Positions 3,056 to 33,392 of a stretch of 64,000 bases of DNA are shown in pieces. Numbering within the stretch: the first letter of the stretch is position 1; every line of letters starts with the position of its first letter. Under the pieces are notes generated by a model that saw only the letters and a program-made list of their open reading frames with translations, searched no databases and was not told where the DNA came from. Origin of the DNA: Anaspis maculata (taxonomy: Eukaryota; Arthropoda; Insecta; Coleoptera; Scraptiidae); the NCBI GenBank assembly GCA_949128115.1, contig OX421964.1:12548892-12612891 (forward strand), given 5' to 3'. A program made the position numbers and the translations under genes.

Positions 3056-3927
3056 GTAGAGTACCAATGCAGAGCCTTCGAAAGAGCTGCTTCATATTTT
3101 TTCTTAGTTGATTCTAGGGTCTTATCAACAACCGAGACCGTGGTGTCATCGTCATGAATGATTGACTTGAATGTGGACAAGTACGCTGAGAAATCGTTGA
3201 CAAATATTAAAAAAAGTTAGGATCTCAAGATAGACCCCTGCTAGTGCACTCCTAGTGGTATTAATTTTTTTGAGGATACTTTACCGTTCACTTTGACAAC
3301 CTGATATCTATCTGTCAGATATGACTTAATCAGTCTCAGACTCGGTCTCAGACTTCTTTCATCAAAGTTATACCGTTTAAGATTTTTTATCAGGATATCT
3401 CGATCCACACAGTCAAAAGCCTTACTGAGATCAAAAAACATTAACATCTGATGGTTGCTCTCATCAAAACACTCAACCGCAAAATTAACAAAGTCAACGA
3501 TAGCATCAGTCGTACTGCGGTGTTTCCTGAAACCAAATTGACACGGGTTGAACAGTTCTTTAGATTCAAAATATTCAGCAACTCTCAGGCTTATGGCTTT
3601 CTCGATAACCTTGGAAGATACCGGGAGCAGGGATATGGGACGGTAGTTTTCAACATTCTCCCTATTTCCCTTTTTAGGCACAGGAATCACGGACGCAATT
3701 TTAAGACAACTGGGAAACACTCATGAGGAAAAACATTCATTGACCAAATTCGTGAGAGGTGTGACAAAATGTTCAACGTTTCTTTGAATAATATATGCGT
3801 TCAATCCATAGACATCTACTGCTTCACTGTCTTTAAGTCCCTTCATGATGTCCCTCACTTCAATTGGAGTCACCGGTCTCGGTGAAAAGGACACATCGCG
3901 AGGGATCACATTGTTCATGATATCCAA
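3056..3927 (-). pseudogene. Non-LTR retrotransposon reverse transcriptase fragment
   Basis: This is part of the polymerase of a LINE-type element (Jockey/CR1-like), which copies RNA into DNA at the target site. From the 5' side it reads the typical VTPIEVRDIMKGLKDSE segment, then PVPKKGNRENVENYRPISLL, FGFRKHRSTTDAI and FFDLSKAFDCVDRDIL (first catalytic Asp). An in-frame TGA at 3721-3723 stands where Gly is usual before VFPSCL. A TAG near 3241 falls in the usual GVPQGSILGP motif, and a further stop follows shortly after. Downstream in the same frame the catalytic YADD box reads HDDD followed by TT, so the Asp pair is kept but the preceding residues are changed. No endonuclease domain is seen upstream. 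The frame reaches the edge of the foldback element at about 3052. It is a decayed fragment and inactive. Confidence 0.88.
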
Positions 3928-12563: not shown

Positions 12564-12899
12564 TCATGTATATATTTCCGAAGTTCCAGAATTTCGAAAA
12601 TTATAGCCATTTCCAGCGTCGTCCATCTGTTCTTCTAGCGCGGCGAAGTCCAGGCTCAGCGACCCGATTTCCACTTCCAAGTCCCATGCGTCTTCCTTAT
12701 TGCGTGGAAATTTCTCAAGAACTTCGCCGTATCTCCGACCAAGGAGCTCGATTGCTTTGCTCAGACGTTCATAGTCGTACATCCTAGGCTCCAGAAGTTT
12801 TTTCCAGCCACGGATTATGTTTAAATCTTCAACGAGTCTTGGCGTCCAGGTCCTCTCGTGGACCTGTCCGATCCACGGCTCGGCACTTCTCTCCATTAC
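12564..12899 (-). CDS. RING-finger gene (minus copy), exon 2
   Basis: This encodes the C-terminal 111 residues of the minus-strand RING protein. The minus-strand acceptor (…TTTGTACCAG) lies just upstream, and the first codons read VMERSAEPWI. The paralogue's second exon at 33045 begins VMKRGGEPWF, in the same phase (0). Shared blocks along the exon include LLGRRYGEVLEKFP against LLGRRYDGVLKKFP, and a following Glu-rich helical segment. No known domain is recognised, and the composition suggests alpha-helix or coiled coil. It is assigned to exon 1 at 21890-22204 because strand, order, phase and homology all match. The price is an intron of 8,990 bp, nearly all of it transposon. The alternative is an orphan exon left by rearrangement. 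The C-terminal tail differs from the paralogue. Confidence 0.72.
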   Translation of the reverse strand, partial: VMERSAEPWIGQVHERTWTPRLVEDLNIIRGWKKLLEPRMYDYERLSKAIELLGRRYGEVLEKFPRNKEDAWDLEVEIGSLSLDFAALEEQMDDAGNGYNFRNSGTSEIYT

Positions 12900-13167
12900 C
12901 TGGTACAAAGAGAAATCTATTAGGCCGAAGATTATGAATTTGAGCAGTATTCAGAATAAATAGCAGTAGGTATAGCACAGTGCTTGACAATCTTGTATTA
13001 TTTTTGTTTGAAACCGTTTTATTACGATTGTGCGAAAACTTGTATCTCGACTTGTATCTTCAGATAGTTTACAATGTTTTCTGCTATATTCCAACTTTAA
13101 AATAATTGTTTCTCATTTTTGATAAACAAGGATAATAAGGACAAAATACACCAGCTTATTGTGCAAC

Positions 13168-13737
13168 AGGTCCCTTCGCTTCGGTTTTTTTTTGAGTGCG
13201 CATGTGTGGCGCGAATTTCATAGTTTCGTACACCGATATTGAAAATGACCACTAAAAAATATTGTAGTGCACCTGAAATTCCACGAATAATTTGGTTGAG
13301 TGTTGGATACCATTTTAATATTCAAAGGAAATGTTTCATTGAAGTTAAGTTCAATGATCATTTGTGGAAGTTCAGGAACAACGAAAATGGCAACAGCGCT
13401 CAAAACAACAAGACATCTGCGCCAACTGTCACTTGTGACAATTATAATGACACTTCTCGTTTCTACCCGACTTACATTCCAGTTGCTCATGTTTTGATGA
13501 AACAACACAACTTGTTGAAAATGACTCAATGACTGTACCGAGAAGGAAGTTCAAAGAAGCTACGAAGAGATGCATTTACGGTGTGTGTAAAAGTGACAGC
13601 CAGGAACCAGTAGTTGGTCAGGCGACTAGACACAGCATGCAGCGTTGCCAAGTTTCCATAGTCACACTGACAGGTGTACGCAAGTTTTCACAATCTGGCG
13701 CTTTTACACATGCGCACCTGCCCAAACGAACTAGCCT
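13168..13737. mobile_element. Short ISL2EU-type element (internal-deletion derivative)
   Basis: This 570-bp element carries both termini of the large element at 13871-21759. The left end starts AGGTCCCTTCG, followed by the subterminal GTGCGCATGTGTGGCGCG. The right end contains TACACATGCGCACCTG and ends CTAGCCT. Its first 430 bp match the leader and THAP start of the large element at very roughly 80% by eye. The next 140 bp match that element's right end. The joint falls at AGTGACAGCC (13592-13601), which occurs at both parental breakpoints (14303-14312 and 21624-21633). Flanks are AC on the left and AT on the right, so the 2-bp duplication is not intact. It is non-autonomous, is older than or from a different subfamily than its neighbour, and lies in the intron of the RING gene. 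Confidence 0.88.
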
Positions 13738-13798
13738 ATTTGTTCATTGTTCAGCTTTTCCCACAATTGTGCAATCAATTTGCAATAGAATTCAGTAA
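13529..13798 (+). pseudogene. Truncated THAP start within the short element
   Basis: The ATG at 13529 opens a frame whose first residues, PRRKFKEATKRCIYGVCKSD, correspond to the THAP N-terminus of the full transposase (ATG at 14243), including the first Cys pair. After about 24 codons the deletion joint switches it into the element's right terminal region. The remaining ~65 codons are translated non-coding sequence running past the element end. It lacks the second zinc ligand pair and the whole DDE domain. Inference: not a functional THAP finger. Any product would be a short basic peptide. Confidence 0.7.
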
Positions 13799-13870
13799 CT
13801 ATTTTTTGTATTTTTTGCTTGACTGAGCTGCACAAATTGCCTTAGGTATTTCACAAGCAAACTGTGCAAT

Positions 13871-13955
13871 AGGTCCCTTCGTTTCGTTTTTTTTGAGTGC
13901 GCATGTCTGGCGCGAATTTCATAGTTTCGTACACCAATATTGAAAATTAGCACTA
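13871..13955 (+). repeat. Left terminal inverted repeat of the ISL2EU element
   Basis: Starts AGGTCCCTTCGTTTCG. The subterminal blocks GTGCGCATGT, GGCGCG and TTTCGTACACC recur in the same order, inverted, at the right end (21690-21759). The spacing between blocks differs by a few bases. Confidence 0.85.
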
Positions 13956-14242
13956 GAAAATTTTCTGTTGCGCCCAAAATTCCACAAAAAATTCAATTTA
14001 TCGCTAGATACCATTTTGGTATCGAAAGGAAATGTTTTATAGGAATTAAGTTCAATGATCATTTGTGGAAGTACAGGGTCAACGAAAATGGCAACAGCGC
14101 AGCCGAAACAGCAAGATCGGCGCCAACTGTCACTTGTGGGACTTCTCACTTCTCGTTTCGTTCGATCTAACCTAACTTCCACGTTGTTGTTGTTGTTGTT
14201 GTTGTTACACACGTTTTGGGGAAACAGCACGACTTGTTGAGA

Positions 14243-16192
14243 ATGGTTTTACCAAGAAAGTTTAAAGGAGCTACGAAGAGATGTGTTTACGGTGTATGTA
14301 AAAGTGACAGCCGATACAAGAAAGCAACGGAAAGTTATACTTTCATCAAATTCCCACAACCATGCCTTCAATATCGAAAAAAACGGGACACCAGTGAGAA
14401 TCATGTAGACCGGTGTAGAACCTGTACAAAAGCATTAGCTTGGGTGAAATTCTGCAGGAGAGATGATGGAAATTTCCAGTCACTACAACACATAACAAAA
14501 GATAAATACATATGCAGTCTTCATGGTGATCCAACCGTGTTTGAAGGCAAAATTGAAAATGACAAGGAGGTAACTATTCTTTTCTTCCAAACCATTGCCG
14601 AATATTACATTGTTTAATAATTTACAGATATCCTCTACCAATGTGGCCAATTCTTCAAATTTTGATGAGCCGACTGTAGAAGCGAAAAGTGAAATTGACT
14701 GGGAACTTGAAGACAAGGTATTATTCACTTTTTCTGTATGATGTTTAATTGAAAATGGGTATATTATTTGTAACTATTTGACAGTCGCCCTCTCCCAGTG
14801 TGATTGATATTTCAACTCAGTCTGGAAACACCGAGGGAAACACAGATCTGGATGAGGATAATACGGTCACTGAACATTACACAAGTGCTAGTTTGAACAG
14901 CACTTTTGATTCTGTGTTGAGTGCTCATGAAACACATCAAAATGAGACAATTACTGTTGTATTTGAAGCGACATCCAAATCCCAGAAAGAGGTTGGTACT
15001 CACGTTACTTTTATGTTGAATGCACTCATATTTTCATGTTTTAGCCTCCAAAGAAAATGTCGAACAAATTTTGTCAAACTCATTTGAAGCACGGCAATAT
15101 GAAACGTTTGAAAACAAGAATGGAACAGCAGAAAATACAGATATCAAATTTGATTCGTGAAAAACAAATGCTGAAATCTAAAAGGTCTCGGGAGTCATTC
15201 AAAAAATTTGTTAAATGTGTGGAGCAAAACAGAAAAATGTGCCTTTTCTACACTGGCCTAACGTTTCGGCAAATTGAAATCCTTTATGAGTTTCTAAGTC
15301 CGTCTAAGCAGGGACTAGTATATTGGGATCCACAGTACTACACCAACAGTGTTGCAAGAAACCGTTTGGTTCGAGACTATCGGCGAAAATTTACATACAT
15401 GGAAGAACTTATCCTCACACTTTTAAGATTACGAGGAGGATTATTACTGGAAGACATTTCTTTTCGATTCCAGATAGCTATGTCTTCGTTATCCAAAATA
15501 ATAACCACGTGGATACAATTCATGTATTATGAATTTAAAGAAATAAAAGTGGAAATGTTCGCATCTCGGGAAAGAATAGCTGAGAAGTTGCCAGCTATGT
15601 TTAGCAAACTTAAGAATATTCGAGTACTCGTCGATTGTGCAGAGTTCTTTTGTGAGGTTCCGAGTAATTTTGAACATCAGGGGAATCTTTACTCAAACTA
15701 TAAGCATCATACTACGTACAAAGTGTTACTAGGAACAACTCCAAATGGAGGCGTATCCTTCATTTCAAACTTATTTGAAGGAGCGATATCAGACAGAGAA
15801 TTGTTCAAACAGTCAGGATTGGTTGAATTGTTGGAAGAAGGGGACCTGGTTTTAGCCGACCGAGGCTTCACGGTGTCAGATATCTTGCAAGAAGTTGGTG
15901 TTTCACTGAACATTCCTCCTTTTTTAAAAGGTAGGGACAAACTCACCCCACAGGAAGAACTAGAAACAAAACGAATAGCAAAGGTAATCATGGAAAATTG
16001 TAATGTGTTCTTAACACTGACGTTTTTTTTTTGTTTCAGGAACGCATCTATGTTGAGCATGTTGTTGGGCGTTTAAAAAAATTTAGATTATTTTCTAGAG
16101 TAATACCCTACAATATGAGAGGTGTTATCTCACAAGTCGTATACATATGTGCATGTTTAATAAATTTTCAAAGTCCAATTTTAACACAGTAG
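14243..16192 (+). CDS. THAP-DDE transposase, five exons, 571 aa
   Basis: Catalyses excision and integration of the host element. Proposed exons are 14243-14569, 14628-14717, 14785-14991, 15045-15983 and 16040-16192. All introns are 53-67 bp, phase 0 and GT-AG. The N-terminal THAP zinc finger has C14, C19, FP at 37-38, W67, C91 and H94; the usual HF after the last ligand is HG here. An acidic Ser/Thr-rich linker (about 110-208) and a basic coiled segment (about 213-260) follow. The DDE_Tnp_4 domain (about 280-560) has Asp405 in LVDCAE, Asp480 in LADRGF and Glu527 in YVEHVVGRLKKF. Glu527 lies in the last exon, so splicing is required for a complete active site. AATAAA lies at 16210-16215, just after the TAG stop. 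I chose the ATG at 14243 because it directly precedes the THAP Cys pair. The frame appears fully open. Confidence 0.9.
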
Positions 16193-16439
16193 GTTTTGTC
16201 AGAAAAATCAATAAAGCAATTATTTTCTCAACTTTTTTTTATTTCATAACGGACTGATTGCATTGCACAACCTGCATAACAGATTTGGTGAGTAGCTATT
16301 GTAAAAAATATATATATTTAAACAATCTTCAAATATAATATCACTTACATAGCGTACTTTGAAAAAATACGTAACCAGAATCGAGAATATTACTAGTATC
16401 GATTGTACTCCCTGCGATCGATACAACCTGCATATAGAT

Positions 16440-17376
16440 TTGGCAAGTAATATTGTAAACAACAAGAAATTTTATAAACAGTCTTCACATAAAATATCAC
16501 TACTATTGTAAACAACAAGAAGTTTTATAAACAGTCTTCACATAAAATATCACTACTATTGTAAACAACAAGAAGTTTTATAAACAGTCTTCACATCAAA
16601 TATCACTACTATTGTAAACAACAAGGAATTTTATAAACAGTCTTCACATAAAGTATCACTAATATAGCGTACAACTTGCATATCAATTTGACAAGTAGCT
16701 ATTGTAAACAAGAAATTTTATGAACAGTCTTTACATTAAGTATCACTAATTCAGCGTACAACTTGCATATAGATTTGGCAAGTAGCTATTGCAAACAAGA
16801 AATTTTATAAAGTCTTCACATAAAATATCACTACTATTGTAAACAACAAGAAATTTTATAAACAATCTTCACATAAAATATCACTACTATTGTAAACAAC
16901 AAGAAGTTTTATAAACAGTCTTCACATAAAATATCACTACTATTGTAAACAACAAGAAGTTTTATAAACAGTCTTCACATCAAATATCACTACTATTGTA
17001 AACAACAAGGAATTTTATAAACAGTCTTCACATAAAGTATCACTAATATAGCGTACAACTTGCATATCAATTTGACAAGTAGCTATTGTAAACAAGAAAT
17101 TTTATAAACAGTCTTTACATTAAGTATCACTAATTCAGCGTACAACTTGCATATAGATTTGGCAAGTAGCTATTGCAAACAAGAAATTTTATAAAGTCTT
17201 CACATAAAATATCACTACTATTGTAAATAACAAGAAATTTTATAAACAATCTTCACATAAAATATCACTACTATTGTAAACAACAAGAAATTTTATAAAC
17301 AATCTTCACATAAAATATCACTACTATTGTAACAACAAGAAATTTTATAAACATTCTTCACATCAAATATCACTGA
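16440..17376. repeat. 53-bp tandem array with 384-bp higher-order unit
   Basis: The unit has the form ACTATTGTAAACAACAAGAA, then TTTTATAAACAGTCTTCACA, then TAAAATATC, repeating every 53 bp. Variant units containing TAGCGTACAACTTGCATAT and GGCAAGTAGCTATTG are interspersed in a fixed order. An AACAAGGAATT marker recurs 384 bp apart (around 16621 and 17005), giving a higher-order repeat. The array lies exactly between the 3' ends of the two convergent transposon genes. The spacers are not unique, so this is not a CRISPR array. Confidence 0.85.
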
Positions 17377-20300
17377 TCATAACTGAAGTGGGGGGAGGTG
17401 TCTCATAATTCTCTGTTCAAAGTACTCGGGAGAAATCACATTCTTGTGGAACTTCAATAGCTTCTCAGCTATGGGGTTCCAAAATACGTCCTCAAATTCT
17501 ATTCTTTCGCAGTGGAAGCAATTTTTTGACCAAACAAAAAAATCACACCATTTGCGTTCTGTCATGGCCATCTGCATTTGAATTTGGTAAAAATATTTAT
17601 GGCTACGTTTCAAACCTAGTTTGCCATTTACCGACGTCAAACAAAACGTCTGCTGCTGTTTTTTGGTCAACAAGTTTATGTCGATTGACGTGGCGTCCTT
17701 AAATAAGTAAGGGCACTTAATTTCAAGAACTCCAAGGTGGCTGGTTGACAATTCAGTATCTTGGATGAGCCCGTCTGGTGACGCTCCTAATCCAGGGTAA
17801 TTAGGATTGACCCACAAGCCCGTTTTTGTTACCGTGTATAACGGAAACTTGGCACAGTAGTCTCTGAATGCTTCATCCTCATGCTCACTACCATATTCCA
17901 AATATTTGGAATAGAATGAAGCTGGTTCCTCCCACAGTTTTTTTTTCAAAATAGTGGACAACTGTTTTGGCGTTTTCTCACGTAGATAATCTGTACAGGC
18001 TGAAGCTGTGATGAGGAGAGTCCGGAAAGTTTTCCACTTCAGGCTCCCTGTTTGTGAACTTGTCCCTGGTACCTCACAAGGCTTTTGTGAATAAACTGTA
18101 ATGTCAAAGAAAAAAGAGCTGTACATTTTGTCGAGTCACAGATAGGATGTTTATAATTATTATGGCATTCTGATTATACAGGGTGTCCGGTGTTTATTCT
18201 TGGAAAATGAAACAGCGGATACAACATCGAAAAAAGAGGGATTTTCATTAGAAACTTCTTCTCAAAAACGAATAATAAGAGAGATATAGCCCTTCAAAGT
18301 TGAAATAAAAAAAATCATTTTTTCCTAAAAACTTCCCGTTTCTTAGAAAAACTCATGGTTCATCAACTTAAAATACCTAGAAAACCTATTTCAATGGAGG
18401 AATCATTAGTTGTCTTAGATTTCAATTTTTGGCTTTTGAAAGTGCGATGATGATGTTTTCGAGATGTTTTCCGAAGTTTCAACCTCAAATATCTCGAGAA
18501 CGAAGCCTCTTATAAAATTTTTGCAGGAGTACTTTTTCTTCCAAATTGAACGTAAAATTCAAAAATTCCATCAATTTACAAAATTACTGAGGGTAAAAAC
18601 CAGGGATAAAAAAACGGGAGCACCCCCCCCCCCATTATCCAAGCCCCTGGAATTTTTTTATGGAATGCGTTATTGATGTTCGATACCGACTCATTTCAGT
18701 AAGCTTTGATTCCTATTTTAACAAAATCGGTTGAGAAATTCGAAAACTATGACGAAAAAACGATTTCCGAGTTCAACTTTGAATGCCTCTATCTCCGTTG
18801 TTATATGTTTCTGGCATACACTTTTTCGAGAAAGTCTACTTCTTTTGAAGTTTCCGATCATTTTCTGAAAGGACGCGATTTAAATTTGAAACACCCTGTA
18901 TAGGGTGTTAGGTACGGGTTATTACAAAATTAGAGGGACGATTCTCTATCAAGAATAAGGCTGAAAGAAAAAAAAATCATAGTCCTAAAATGCTACCTTA
19001 AAAAGATACAGGGTGTTGAAGTTAACTTCCTTGAATAGTTTTTTTTTTAACCGTAACTTTTGAACGCTTGCTCAAAAAGTCTTCATCGAACAATAATACC
19101 GCGATTAATCCAAAATTCTCAGGGGGGTTAATAATAGGGGTGCCCTCTTTTTTCTACCCTATTTTCACCTCCCTTTATTATTTTTTAAACTGTCAATATC
19201 GTCGGATTCTGCGTTCAATTTAGAAGAAAAAAATCCCCTTGCAAAATTTTGATTGGAAACTTAATTTTTGAGATATTGCTTTGGCTTTGGCTTTGGCTTT
19301 GGGTTTAAACTTTGGAAAACATCTCAAAACCGCCTCTATCCAGAGCCTAGATATTTTTTCGCTGAAAACTCGTTTCTTAGCAAAAAACGGCATCAAAATT
19401 ACTTAAAACACCTAGAAAACTTATTTCAGTTGAGGAATCATGAGTCGGTCCAACGGTTCAAAAGTTACGGTGAAAAACCGATTTAAAAAAGTCAACTTCA
19501 ACAGCCTGTATATTTTTGAAGAAGCATTTTAGGACCATGAGTTTTATTTCCATTCGGCCTTATTTTTGATGGGCAATCATCCTTCGAAGTTTGTAATGAC
19601 CATTACTTAACACCCTTGTGTACCTATTTAAGCTTTTGAAACTTGCAAATTATTATTATTATAGTCATTATTACTGTTTATTGTAATACAAAGAAATATT
19701 TTTGCAATGAGCTGTAAAGTTCTCCAAATCAGAAATTCCAAATCGAAAATTGCTCCCATAGGCCCGTATTCATGGTCAGATCTTATGTCTTAAGACGACC
19801 TTATTCAATTTTCATGAGCCAATTTTTAGCAAACACAACCACGAGAAATGTATTGTATTTGGTTATAATATACAATATTTACAAGAAGATTCTTATACCT
19901 TTAAAATCATCTTAGCCCAAGCCTGGGTCTAAATAAGCATGGTCTTAAGACCACCTTATATTTGAGATCTGACTATGAATACGAGCCATAAGGTTGAGAA
20001 TAATGCGCAAGCTTCAAAAGTGAAACAAATTATCTATAAAAATTACTATGCACGTTTTCAAGTGCATAATGGTGTTATCGCAAGTTCAACTGGCTGTTCT
20101 ACTGCTGCTCGGCCGCACTCATTGTCAGGGAACAGCTCAACCTATTAGAGTTTTCTTGAAAACAGGTGAGACCGAGCAGCACTGGAGCAGCCAAGTGAAT
20201 TAGCTATTAGTTACCTGTTAATGTAGCATGAAGCAGAGCAATCTTAATTTGCAAAATTCGCAACTGCTCTGCGTCCAGTGTATAGTCATAATTTTTTCTT

Positions 20301-21389
20301 TCCAACATAAATTCAAAGTTGCTGGGCCGTTCTGTCGCTGAATTGGCTTCTAAATTTGCAATCAGCGTGTTGTACTTCCCCATCTTTTCTTCTCTGCTGC
20401 AAACTTTCCGCCTTGGGTCATAATTGACTTTTCTTATCAACGGCCTTCCATCATTGTATGTGTTGCTGGCTGCTTCCTGGGGGTTTTTCTTTTTTTTTCC
20501 CATGTTCCATGTACACGGTAAGCTTGTACATGGAATGGCTTTGTGGCCAAACTCTACCGTATACTGTTCGATTTTGAACAACAGGGCTGCCACATGAGCG
20601 CACCTGCCCATGGCTGAGGCCTTACAGTGGCATGAGGCATCCGCAACATCACCACAATCTGACAGCATCACCATCACCGTATAGGAGACGTTTTCCTTAA
20701 AAGACGCCTTCACTATGGCCTTGAAGCACGTGCAAGAACCTGCTTTCCCATCGCTGATATCGGATACATATCCGCTTGCCACATATTGTCTTCCTTTTCT
20801 GAAGGGCTTGCTTGTAAAAACATTTTGGTGAGTGTTTCCTCCATCGCTGTTTTCATCGTTCTCTTTTTCTGAATCCAATCCATCCATTGCTTGCACATTC
20901 AGATATAAATATATACTTCCCATATTGAAATACCTCGGAATGTCAATGGATGGGAATGTGTTCCAACCTGAAAAAAACTTCCGTTTATTATTGGTGAACA
21001 TTAAAACATTTCCTGTTGTCTACTCACTCAATGGGAAATGTGGTGGCTTGCTTTTTGTTTTGTTGAGTGTTTGCCTCACAGTGTCCGATTTTTTCTGTAG
21101 GTGTTTTCCCCTGTCTACACCACCATAGATGGGTGTGCCTTTGTTGATGCATTGGTTCGCCCTATAATCGAGTAGAACATTTGAATAATTACCATATCCA
21201 GCAAGGTAATGTGCATACGAACCTCAAAATGAGTTGATCCTTTGTACCTTTCACATCAACATTTCGGCACTGCAAGAACCGCCGCAATTGCTCCTTGTTC
21301 AACTGAGACGGAGTCCTATGGCCCAATGAAGCCCCAGGAACATCGTTTTCGTCCAATGCAACTTTAACGTATGGCAGCGAGCTTGCCAT
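17377..21389 (-). CDS. SAP-SWIM-YqaJ nuclease protein of the transposon, 569 aa
   Basis: This is the second protein of ISL2EU elements, a PD-(D/E)XK (YqaJ/lambda-exonuclease-like) nuclease with a presumed DNA-processing role in transposition. Proposed exons on the minus strand are 21389-21219, 21094-21028, 20967-20215 and 18095-17377, with phases 0, 1 and 1; all junctions are GT-AG and keep the frame. Domains: SAP-like DNA-binding helix pair at 25-57 (RTPSQLNKEQLRRFLQ); SWIM zinc finger with C192, C194, C202 and H204 (CHC…CAH); YqaJ domain at about 335-540 with Asp438 in GASPDGL, Glu455/Lys457 in LEIKCPY, and a QIQMQMAM Gln motif. The first donor (TTC|GTATGC) is weak, so the exon 1-2 junction is the least certain. 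An upstream in-frame ATG at 21605 would add a hydrophobic stretch encoded by a trinucleotide-like repeat, so I prefer 21389. The last intron is 2.1 kb and hosts three elements. Confidence 0.87.
18179..18898. mobile_element. CAGGGTG-ended element in the YqaJ intron
   Basis: 720 bp, running from CAGGGTGTCC to AAACACCCTG, with TA on both sides. The ends are inverted copies for about 8 bp. The interiors share phrases typical of this family (AAAGTTG, TCGAGA, ATTTTTGCAGGAG) but do not form a full palindrome. Non-autonomous and of Tc1/mariner type by its ends and TA flanks. It lies wholly within the last intron of the YqaJ gene. Confidence 0.7.
18901..19617. mobile_element. Foldback element abutting the previous one
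   Basis: Begins TAGGGTGTTAGGTAC and ends TACTTAACACCCTT. Outer segments are inverted copies: ATTACAAAATTAGAGGGACG and a diverged match of it near 19590, plus ATAAGGCTGAAAG and its counterpart near 19553. An inner GTTGAAGTTAACTT and its complement-like GTCAACTTCAACAGCC form a second pair. This places two CAGGGTG-like units head to tail in the same intron. Confidence 0.65.
19761..19987. mobile_element. MITE with GGCCCGTATTCAT ends, 227 bp
   Basis: Terminal inverted repeats of about 24 bp (GGCCCGTATTCATGGTCAG at the left; the complement of GGCTCGTATTCATAGTCAG at the right) enclose an AT-rich core. ATA stands on both sides and could be a 3-bp target duplication. The end sequence matches that of the 53-bp palindrome at 22429-22481. 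It lies in the YqaJ intron. Confidence 0.7.
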
Positions 21390-21689
21390 TCTAGCAGCTC
21401 CAGCCCGCAGGGCCCGCAGCGGGACCACACGGCGAAAAACCGAGTTTGAATTTAAACGGAAATCGCGAGTAACAACAATAACAATAACAATAACAAAACA
21501 AAAACAAAAAAAAACAACAACAAAAGCAGTGGAAAACACCAAGAAAGCACCAAGATACGTAACGTCGTGATCGCGAAAACCGTTGAATTTCAAATTAATG
21601 CGCATGACAATTTAACATTCGACAGTGACAGCCAGGATCAGTAGGAGCTAGTCGGGGGCTAGACAGAGCATGCAGCGTTGCCATTCAAT

Positions 21690-21759
21690 TGACAGGTGTA
21701 CGAAAGTTTTCAAAATCTGGCGCCTTTACACATGCGCACCTGTCGAAACGAAGTAGCCT
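21690..21759 (-). repeat. Right terminal inverted repeat of the ISL2EU element
   Basis: Contains GGTGTACGAAAGTTTT, GGCGCC, ACATGCGCACC and CGAAACGAAGTAGCCT, ending at 21759 and followed by AT. It is the inverted counterpart of the left end at 13871-13955. Confidence 0.85.
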
Positions 21760-21889
21760 ATTCCCAATCCACCTCTACAATCAATAACTATTGCACAATT
21801 TTTTTTATCGCACAAGCATTTTTCTCGCCTTGTCAGTGTGAATTTGAGTCATCAGTCATAAAAAAAAAAAAGAAAAACGTCATTCTTAC

Positions 21890-22204
21890 CACTGTGACGA
21901 TTGCGTCCAGGCTTCCTAGGCGTTTTGCTCTGGACGAACTAGCCCTGCACAAAGGGCATTTCTGCTCCTGCAGCTTTGCCAGGCACAATGTGCAAAACAC
22001 GTGTCTGCACCTCGTCACGCGGGCCCTGAGCGGCAGTTCCAGACAAATCGAACATGTGGCTTCGTCCTTGAGTACCTCCACCAAATCGGCAATTTGCACC
22101 TCGTTGTCTATTGCTTTTTCCACAAGGGCCTGGATTTCGTCCAAGACAGCAAGTTGATGGTGACTCTTGATCAAAGTTTGAATCAATTCTCGGAACTCGA
22201 TCAT
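21890..22204 (-). CDS. RING-finger gene (minus copy), exon 1
   Basis: The first 105 residues of a 216-aa protein; probable E3 ubiquitin ligase activity. A helical N-terminus (MIEFRELIQTLIKS…AVLDEIQALVEKA) is followed by a complete C3HC4 RING. It begins TCSICLELPL and continues CRHVFCTLCLAKLQEQKCPLC, providing all eight zinc ligands. Spacing resembles BRCA1-type RINGs, though nothing else of BRCA1 is present. The ATG at 22204 aligns with the start at 32678 of the paralogue; an in-frame ATG further upstream (22258) is not conserved there. The donor GTG|GTAAGA matches the position and phase (0) of the paralogue's donor. The next homologous exon on this strand is 12564-12899. Leftover host intron sequence outside recognisable elements is only about 0.5 kb. 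Confidence 0.85.
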
Positions 22205-22535
22205 TTTGATTTTCATTGATGACACGATTTTGAGCTTGTCACACGTTTTAATAAACAAATTTTCTTCGGCAAAGGTTCACTTAGGTGTTGACAGTGCAAG
22301 AGTAGGAAACGAACTGAATTATATGACTGAACATATCTTTGACAACGAGGGTTTTTCTCTGGGAATTCTTTACCTGGCTTGGGTCGGCAACGAATTGTTA
22401 TGAAATAAGATAAGTCGGTATTGTCTTTGGGCCGTATTCATACCTCGCTTTCAACTTAAAAGCGAGGTATGAATACGGCCCTCTGTCATCAGTGGCCCCT
22501 TTTTGGTGTATCCTATTCAACCTTGCACTTGACCA
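22205..22535 (-). promoter_or_regulatory. Upstream region conserved with the RING paralogue
   Basis: Read on the minus strand, this segment matches 32389-32677 upstream of the other RING gene. Shared blocks include CAATGGTCAA, ACACCAAAAAGGG, AAAGACAATA, AACGAGGGTTTTTCT (complement side) and TGCACTGTCAAC. Conservation of this upstream region shows the duplication included the promoter or 5' UTR. The transcription start is not determined. The copy here is interrupted by a 53-bp palindrome at 22429-22481. Confidence 0.65.
22429..22481. mobile_element. 53-bp perfect palindromic insertion
   Basis: Arms of 23 bp (GGGCCGTATTCATACCTCGC plus TTT) are perfectly inverted around a 7-base loop (CAACTTA). 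The paralogous upstream region near 32445 lacks it, so it is an insertion. Its ends match the 227-bp MITE at 19761, so it is probably an extremely shortened relative. No clear target duplication is visible: flanks are GTCTTT and TCTGTC. Confidence 0.75.
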
Positions 22536-32677: not shown

Positions 32678-33392
32678 ATGAGTGAGTTCCGACGATTGCT
32701 TCAAACCTTGATCAGGAGTGACAGCCCTGCTGTCTTGGACGAAATCCAAGATATTCTGGAAAAAGCAAGAGACAACGAGCAAATTGGTGACTTGATCGAT
32801 GCACTCAAGGACGAAGTCGGATGTCCGATTTGTTTGGAACTGCCAACCGAGGTCTGCGTGACGATGTGCGGACACGTGTTCTGTACATACTGCCTGGCCA
32901 GCGTGCAGGAACAAGAGTGCCCTCTGTGCAGGTCCGATTCGCCCACAGCAAAACGTCTGGAAAGCCTGGATACAATAATCAGCACGGTAAGAATGGCCAT
33001 TTCTAATATATTAACGTTGTCTTGATGCGATTGAAACATTTCAGGTGATGAAGAGAGGTGGCGAGCCTTGGTTTGAACAAGTGGAGGAGAGGAGATGGAC
33101 ATGGACGCTCGTCCAAGATTTGGACATGATCCGTCGCTGGAATGAGCTTCTTGAGTCTTCGATGGACGACCACGGAAGTCTAATGGAAGAAATCGAACTC
33201 CTCGGTCGAAGATACGACGGTGTTCTCAAGAAATTTCCTTTCAATAAGGAAAATTTACTGGATGTGGAGGACGAAATTATATCGTTGAATCTAGAGTTCT
33301 GTGACGTACGAGCAAGAATGGATGTTGTGAAAAATGCCGAGTACGTGGGAATGTCATCAAGTTTTTGTAAATACATAGGTTTTTCTAGGTGA
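32678..33392 (+). CDS. RING-finger protein (plus copy), two exons, 218 aa
   Basis: Probable E3 ubiquitin ligase or RING adaptor. Exon 1 is 32678-32986 and exon 2 is 33045-33392, separated by a 58-bp GT-AG intron (ACG|GTAAGA…TTTCAG|GTG, phase 0). The N-terminal 45 residues are helical (FRRLLQTLIRS, AVLDEIQDILEKA). The C3HC4 RING at about 48-84 begins GCPICLELPTE and continues CGHVFCTYCLASVQEQECPLC. The C-terminal half (WFEQVEERRW, LLGRRYDGVLKKF, then an acidic helical tail) matches only the paralogue's exon 2. The stop is TGA at 33390-33392; AATAAA starts at 33393. The ATG follows a conserved upstream region. The RING itself resembles BRCA1-type RINGs. The substrate is unknown. Confidence 0.85.

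Follow-up and report, generated by a model that had tools for sequence, protein, structure and literature searches.

ISL2EU transposons are characterized, in the passages of PMC4482050 that treat them, by an AT target duplication in the context A|AT|T, an open reading frame with DDE, HTH and THAP domains, and an open reading frame for a YqaJ protein. The same passages give a mean size of ~4,840 bp and describe the role of the YqaJ protein in these elements as unknown, and their ends usually start with GG, as stated in passages of PMC4482050, PMC9179366 and PMC12730594. Here we analyze a 7,889-bp element in a 64,000-nucleotide stretch of the beetle Anaspis maculata (GCA_949128115.1, contig OX421964.1, positions 12,548,892 to 12,612,891 of the forward strand), hereafter the window, which we number from its first base. 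The element, at 13871..21759, has the A|AT|T duplication, a frame with DDE, HTH and THAP-like domains (gene A) and a YqaJ frame (gene B), so the ISL2EU identity proposed in a first-pass annotation of the window holds by the published tests. We consider it very probable that the element is an intact ISL2EU copy. The fuller reading, of an intact and potentially autonomous transposon that is the lone coding copy in its assembly and the likely helper of gene-less short copies, we hold to be probable.

Ends and target site

The terminal inverted repeats, AGGTCCCTTCGTTTCG at the left and AGGCTACTTCGTTTCG read on the other strand at the right, are alike at 13 of 16 positions, and the element is flanked as A|AT ... 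AT|T. Judged from the window alone, these ends are unremarkable: allowing at most three mismatches, the merged end pattern occurs at 5 sites against 2.03 expected, a number reached in 8 of 100 shuffles. It is the genome copies that lift them above chance, because AT flanks recur at other genomic copies with unrelated flanks. A left-end search of the 757.8-Mb assembly of 50 contigs scored 40 matches (the window included) of 1,682 candidates, and all 39 others were examined. AT precedes the left end in 33 of 39 and follows the right end in 35 of 38; 30 of the 38 copies with a located right end have it on both sides by script count, or 31 by hand, the script having set the right end of copy L092 three bases short. 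The left flank reads AAT in 30/39 and the right flank ATT in 29/38, and the flanks are otherwise unrelated to each other. Flank reading and genome copies thus uphold the coordinates, inverted ends and AT sites given on first pass, which would have been called into question had other copies placed the ends elsewhere.

A left boundary further out, suggested by 19 alike bases (CACMAGC....TGTGCAAY) left of both the element and a related copy upstream in the window, was rejected; we keep the boundary at 13871, since the sequence left of the other copies in the genome is unrelated. The alike bases, at 13149-13167 and 13852-13870, lie outside both ISL2EU copies of the window and have no counterpart at other genomic copies.

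Coding capacity of genes A and B

Both genes are readable throughout. The gene A model has five exons on the + strand and encodes 571 amino acids, while the gene B model has four exons on the - strand and encodes 590 amino acids, neither with an internal stop. All seven proposed introns are GT-AG, in agreement with the first-pass description of two convergent, intron-containing genes that keep their frames. At four of the seven junctions (A4, B1, B2 and B3) relatives align in frame across the intron, B2 being one residue short in a wider alignment, and another ISL2EU family in this genome has no interruption at the A4 and B3 positions. The 3,489 coding bases contain no disabling change; a neutral model that assumes indel ratios between 0.05 and 0.15 then limits neutral divergence to about 0.4-0.8%.

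In the gene A protein, which has the length found previously, the annotated catalytic residues D405 and E527 are invariant and D480 is nearly so among 18 aligned sequences. Pfam matches DDE_Tnp_4 (7.8e-42) and HTH_Tnp_4 (9.6e-10), and the closest named transposases in the homologue list are from insects. The N-terminal domain has the C2CH zinc ligands of THAP (C14, C19, C91 and H94), with C91 and H94 present in 27/27 rows and C14 and C19 in most; we label it THAP-like with insert because the Pfam model is unmatched. The insert, C41-x12-H54-x3-C58-x2-C61, precedes W67 and is common to an insect-type subgroup. Relatives that bear it are under the THAP cut-off (4/4 scanned, 19.0-22.6 bits versus 23.9). 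Literature passages covering both THAP and ISL2EU, as far as these extend, make no mention of such an insert.

For gene B, nuclease residues D459/E476/K478 and SWIM ligands C213, C215, C223 and H225 are all seven invariant in 18 sequences, bearing out the complete SWIM ligand set of the first pass. The nuclease triad named there (Asp438/Glu455/Lys457) comprises the same residues at the same spacing under a numbering shifted by 21; the frame proved open as claimed, and the stated length of 569 amino acids was not reproduced. Pfam YqaJ scores 51.6 bits against a cut-off of 22. The SWIM pattern C-x-C...C-x-H is invariant in the 18 sequences, and several gene B relatives carry a SAP annotation. 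The protein is predicted to be a nuclease with a lambda-exonuclease-type fold and a D...E-x-K site.

Gene-less short copies and the search for other coding copies

None of the 39 other left-end copies has kept gene B or more than about 24 codons of gene A, an absence which for 20 of them is inferred from length alone (483-593 bp). The commonest short class, ~550 bp, has the same breakpoint, at the word AGTGACAGCC, as a 570-bp deletion copy in the window that ends 133 bp upstream of the element and is at most 92% like other short copies. Comparison of 22 short copies gives 231 pairs, 20 of which reach 99% identity or more. Because the closest pair differs at 1/550 bases, ends of the element's kind have moved recently. 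A longer gene-less copy with ends of this family (L111, C9:11883472-11893471) spans 3,527 bp with unrelated filler.

A query of the assembly with transposase exon 4 gave 133 matches, with scores for 127 of 184 candidates; it recovered the window at 100% and the next three loci at 55-57% identity. With the nuclease exon (94 matches; 150 of 168 candidates scored), the window was the only full-length member of its family among scored candidates. The window element is, among scored matches in this assembly of one genome, the only copy found that codes for its own transposase. Partial nuclease pieces of 57-88% identity occur at C1:20.147-20.150 Mb; stops interrupt most of them, and one, 142 residues long and 85% identical, is open.

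The pairing of the two genes extends beyond the window: 8/29 other transposase loci in the genome show an opposite-strand, converging gene B piece, and five A/B pairs on shared-size contigs appear among the homologues listed (120 of 214 for B, 120 of 352 for A), including Priapulus and Lingula, where the pairs have neighbouring gene numbers. The divergences of A and B over six linked pairs (Pearson 0.92, Spearman 0.18) were not used as evidence. IMG/VR contained no relatives of the transposase; the nuclease had relatives at 436 loci, and none of the 80 retained had a transposase relative. Two GTDB loci filed under an Aquifex metagenome-assembled genome (L081 and L082, 31-38% to the transposase) were too distant to use; one carries both genes (a YqaJ piece), and eukaryotic contamination is suspected. 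Another DDE transposase family, 32% identical to gene A, occupies about 37 places (L148-L153 and further) with equal or near-equal scores; mostly 506-amino-acid open frames in many near-identical copies, it is perhaps the most recently amplified, and its loci also match repeats nested in gene B intron 3.

Mechanism and alternative interpretations

We propose that the element ends would be bound by the THAP and HTH domains of gene A and cleaved at AGG...CCT by its DDE domain, which would then insert them into A|AT|T and leave the AT duplication, as the chemistry of the family suggests. Gene B would act as a DNA-binding nuclease, probably trimming or clearing DNA where the element is excised or inserted. 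The window copy would most likely be the helper, or last surviving helper, of the recently spread short copies; it is the leading candidate enzyme source because it is the only copy found with readable genes, while gene-less copies with the same ends spread recently. The first-pass suggestion that it could be autonomous is strengthened by the open frames, its standing as the only transposase-coding copy found and the recent gene-less movement, and remains unproven. Judged from sequence, the balance tips slightly toward an element that can still move.

The alternative with most weight, which we nevertheless consider unlikely, is an intact but immobile copy, recently silenced or fixed, with the short copies moved by a sibling that was lost or is missing from the assembly. 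Several observations weigh on this side and against a working helper. The search for near-identical full-length copies with AT duplications, proposed on first pass, found none among scored matches, the left end of the element is 88% like the ~25 tied youngest short copies, and the partial, mostly stop-bearing gene B pieces show that there were formerly other copies. One such piece, at C6:68.187 Mb, is 97% identical over 91 residues with one stop, and together with the passenger repeats in gene B intron 3 it indicates some age or decay in the family. The gene models also have weaker places: junctions A1-A3 lie in a variable linker without homology support, and, among the profiles named in the first-pass annotation, DDE_Tnp_4 and YqaJ match whereas THAP is unmatched and SAP (21.2 bits versus 23.9) and SWIM (14.0 versus 19.6) fall under their cut-offs. 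Against a silenced copy stand the coding bases without disabling change and the low bound on neutral divergence that follows.

It is improbable that a different ISL2EU family in the genome moves the short copies, with the window element a bystander. Such a family has moved recently, as two copies (C2, 27810100-27816900 and 72018200-72025000) are 99.57% identical over 4,870 bp, with AT sites and unrelated flanks. However, their ends, AGGTCATTTCATGG, diverge from AGGTCCCTTCGTTTCG past the first five bases, their transposase is 57% like that of the window, and a stop interrupts gene B in each of them. A host-retained (domesticated) gene pair that merely kept transposon ends would account for a single coding copy with open frames but is very improbable, as both ends and the duplication are intact, both genes are present and the gene-less copies with the element's ends are recent.

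More speculatively, and with low probability, the THAP insert may be a second zinc-binding module that sets the end specificity of the insect-type ISL2EU lineage, with the surviving copy as the sole master driving a large, still-moving gene-less family. With one intact copy and numerous gene-less ones of recent origin, the family offers a clean system to test the need for the nuclease and the role of the insert in end recognition and, if the element works, a candidate gene-transfer tool.

Genomic setting

The 570-bp deletion copy, the RING-gene intron, the THAP insert and the genome-wide short copies go beyond the first-pass annotation. A RING-finger gene (220 amino acids, both exons open) has an intron of 8,990 bp, of which the element and short copy make up 8,459 bp; both would be removed along with this intron. 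In a RING paralogue in opposite orientation (32678-33392, +), the intron at the corresponding position and in the same phase measures 58 bp; over 214 codons the pair shows nonsynonymous divergence (dN) of 0.30 and synonymous divergence (dS) of 0.68. No RING relatives were found at E 1e-3 among 543 candidates, so the gene can be called an ordinary host gene only tentatively. Two inverted-repeat elements whose ends resemble GGCCCGTATTCAT lie at 19761-19987, in gene B intron 3, and at about 22420-22480, the latter an insertion by comparison with the RING paralogue. Elsewhere in the window, a reverse transcriptase fragment is found at 3244-3720 (-; RVT_1, 1.1e-19), and an Rfam scan of the window gave no match.

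Table 1. Features of the ISL2EU element and its surroundings (window coordinates)
Feature	Position	Strand	Remarks
ISL2EU-type DNA transposon, 7,889 bp	13871..21759	+ (gene A strand)	Ends, AT sites, two genes
Left AT of target duplication, preceded by A	13869..13870	.	Flank reading, genome copies
Right AT of target duplication, then T	21760..21761	.	Flank reading, genome copies
Left terminal inverted repeat, 16 bp, AGGTCCCTTCGTTTCG	13871..13886	+	End comparison, genome copies
Right terminal inverted repeat, 16 bp, AGGCTACTTCGTTTCG on other strand	21744..21759	-	End comparison, genome copies
Gene A exon 1: THAP-like domain carrying the C-H-C-C insert	14243..14569	+	
Gene A exon 2 (linker)	14628..14717	+	Junctions without homology support
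Gene A exon 3 (linker)	14785..14991	+	Junctions without homology support
Gene A exon 4: HTH, most of DDE domain (D405, D480)	15045..15983	+	
Gene A exon 5: remainder of DDE domain (E527), stop codon	16040..16192	+	
Tandem array between 3' ends of genes A and B; 384-bp repeat composed with 53-bp and 87-bp units	16451..17374	.	
Gene B exon 1: SAP domain	21223..21389	-	
Gene B exon 2	21028..21161	-	
Gene B exon 3: SWIM motif	20215..20967	-	
Gene B intron 3, 2,119 bp	18096..20214	-	At least 3 nested repeats (about 18177-18900, 18901-19617, 19761-19987)
Gene B exon 4: YqaJ nuclease (D459, E476, K478), stop	17377..18095	-	
Internally deleted relative, 570 bp	13168..13737	+	Joined at AGTGACAGCC, present at both places in full element
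RING-finger gene exon 1	21890..22216	-	
RING-finger gene intron, 8,990 bp	12900-21889	-	Houses element and 570-bp short copy
RING-finger gene exon 2	12564..12899	-	

Comparison with known systems

Set beside published ISL2EU elements, the window element differs in its 7.9-kb length, tandem array, passenger repeats and C-H-C-C THAP insert. With the 924-bp array and the 2,119-bp gene B intron 3 set aside, its 4,846 bp are near the published mean. Its ends start with AG(G) rather than the usual GG, a minor difference. The other family in this genome, with copies at C2:27.81 Mb and C2:72.02 Mb, likewise has convergent A and B genes, AT sites and the THAP insert, but its proteins are 57% (A) and 37% (B) identical to those of the window, its ends are different, introns A4 and B3 are lacking, and each of its two near-identical copies has a gene B stop.

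Gene B shares the fold and the D...E-x-K residues of the lambda-exonuclease/YqaJ group (LHK-Exo, 3syy; lambda exonuclease, 1avq), whereas its nuclease domain, known here from sequence, follows SAP and SWIM motifs within a protein encoded by a transposon. Gene A has the C-x4-C ... C-x2-H frame of THAP1 and the P-element transposase THAP and matches them by profile, but differs in the insert (C41, H54, C58, C61) before W67 and in leaving the Pfam model unmatched. Literature judged by title for three or more of YqaJ, SWIM, SAP and transposon together included none on such an element. The element belongs to a kind already known from animals; what is new, as matters of detail, are this copy and its THAP insert.
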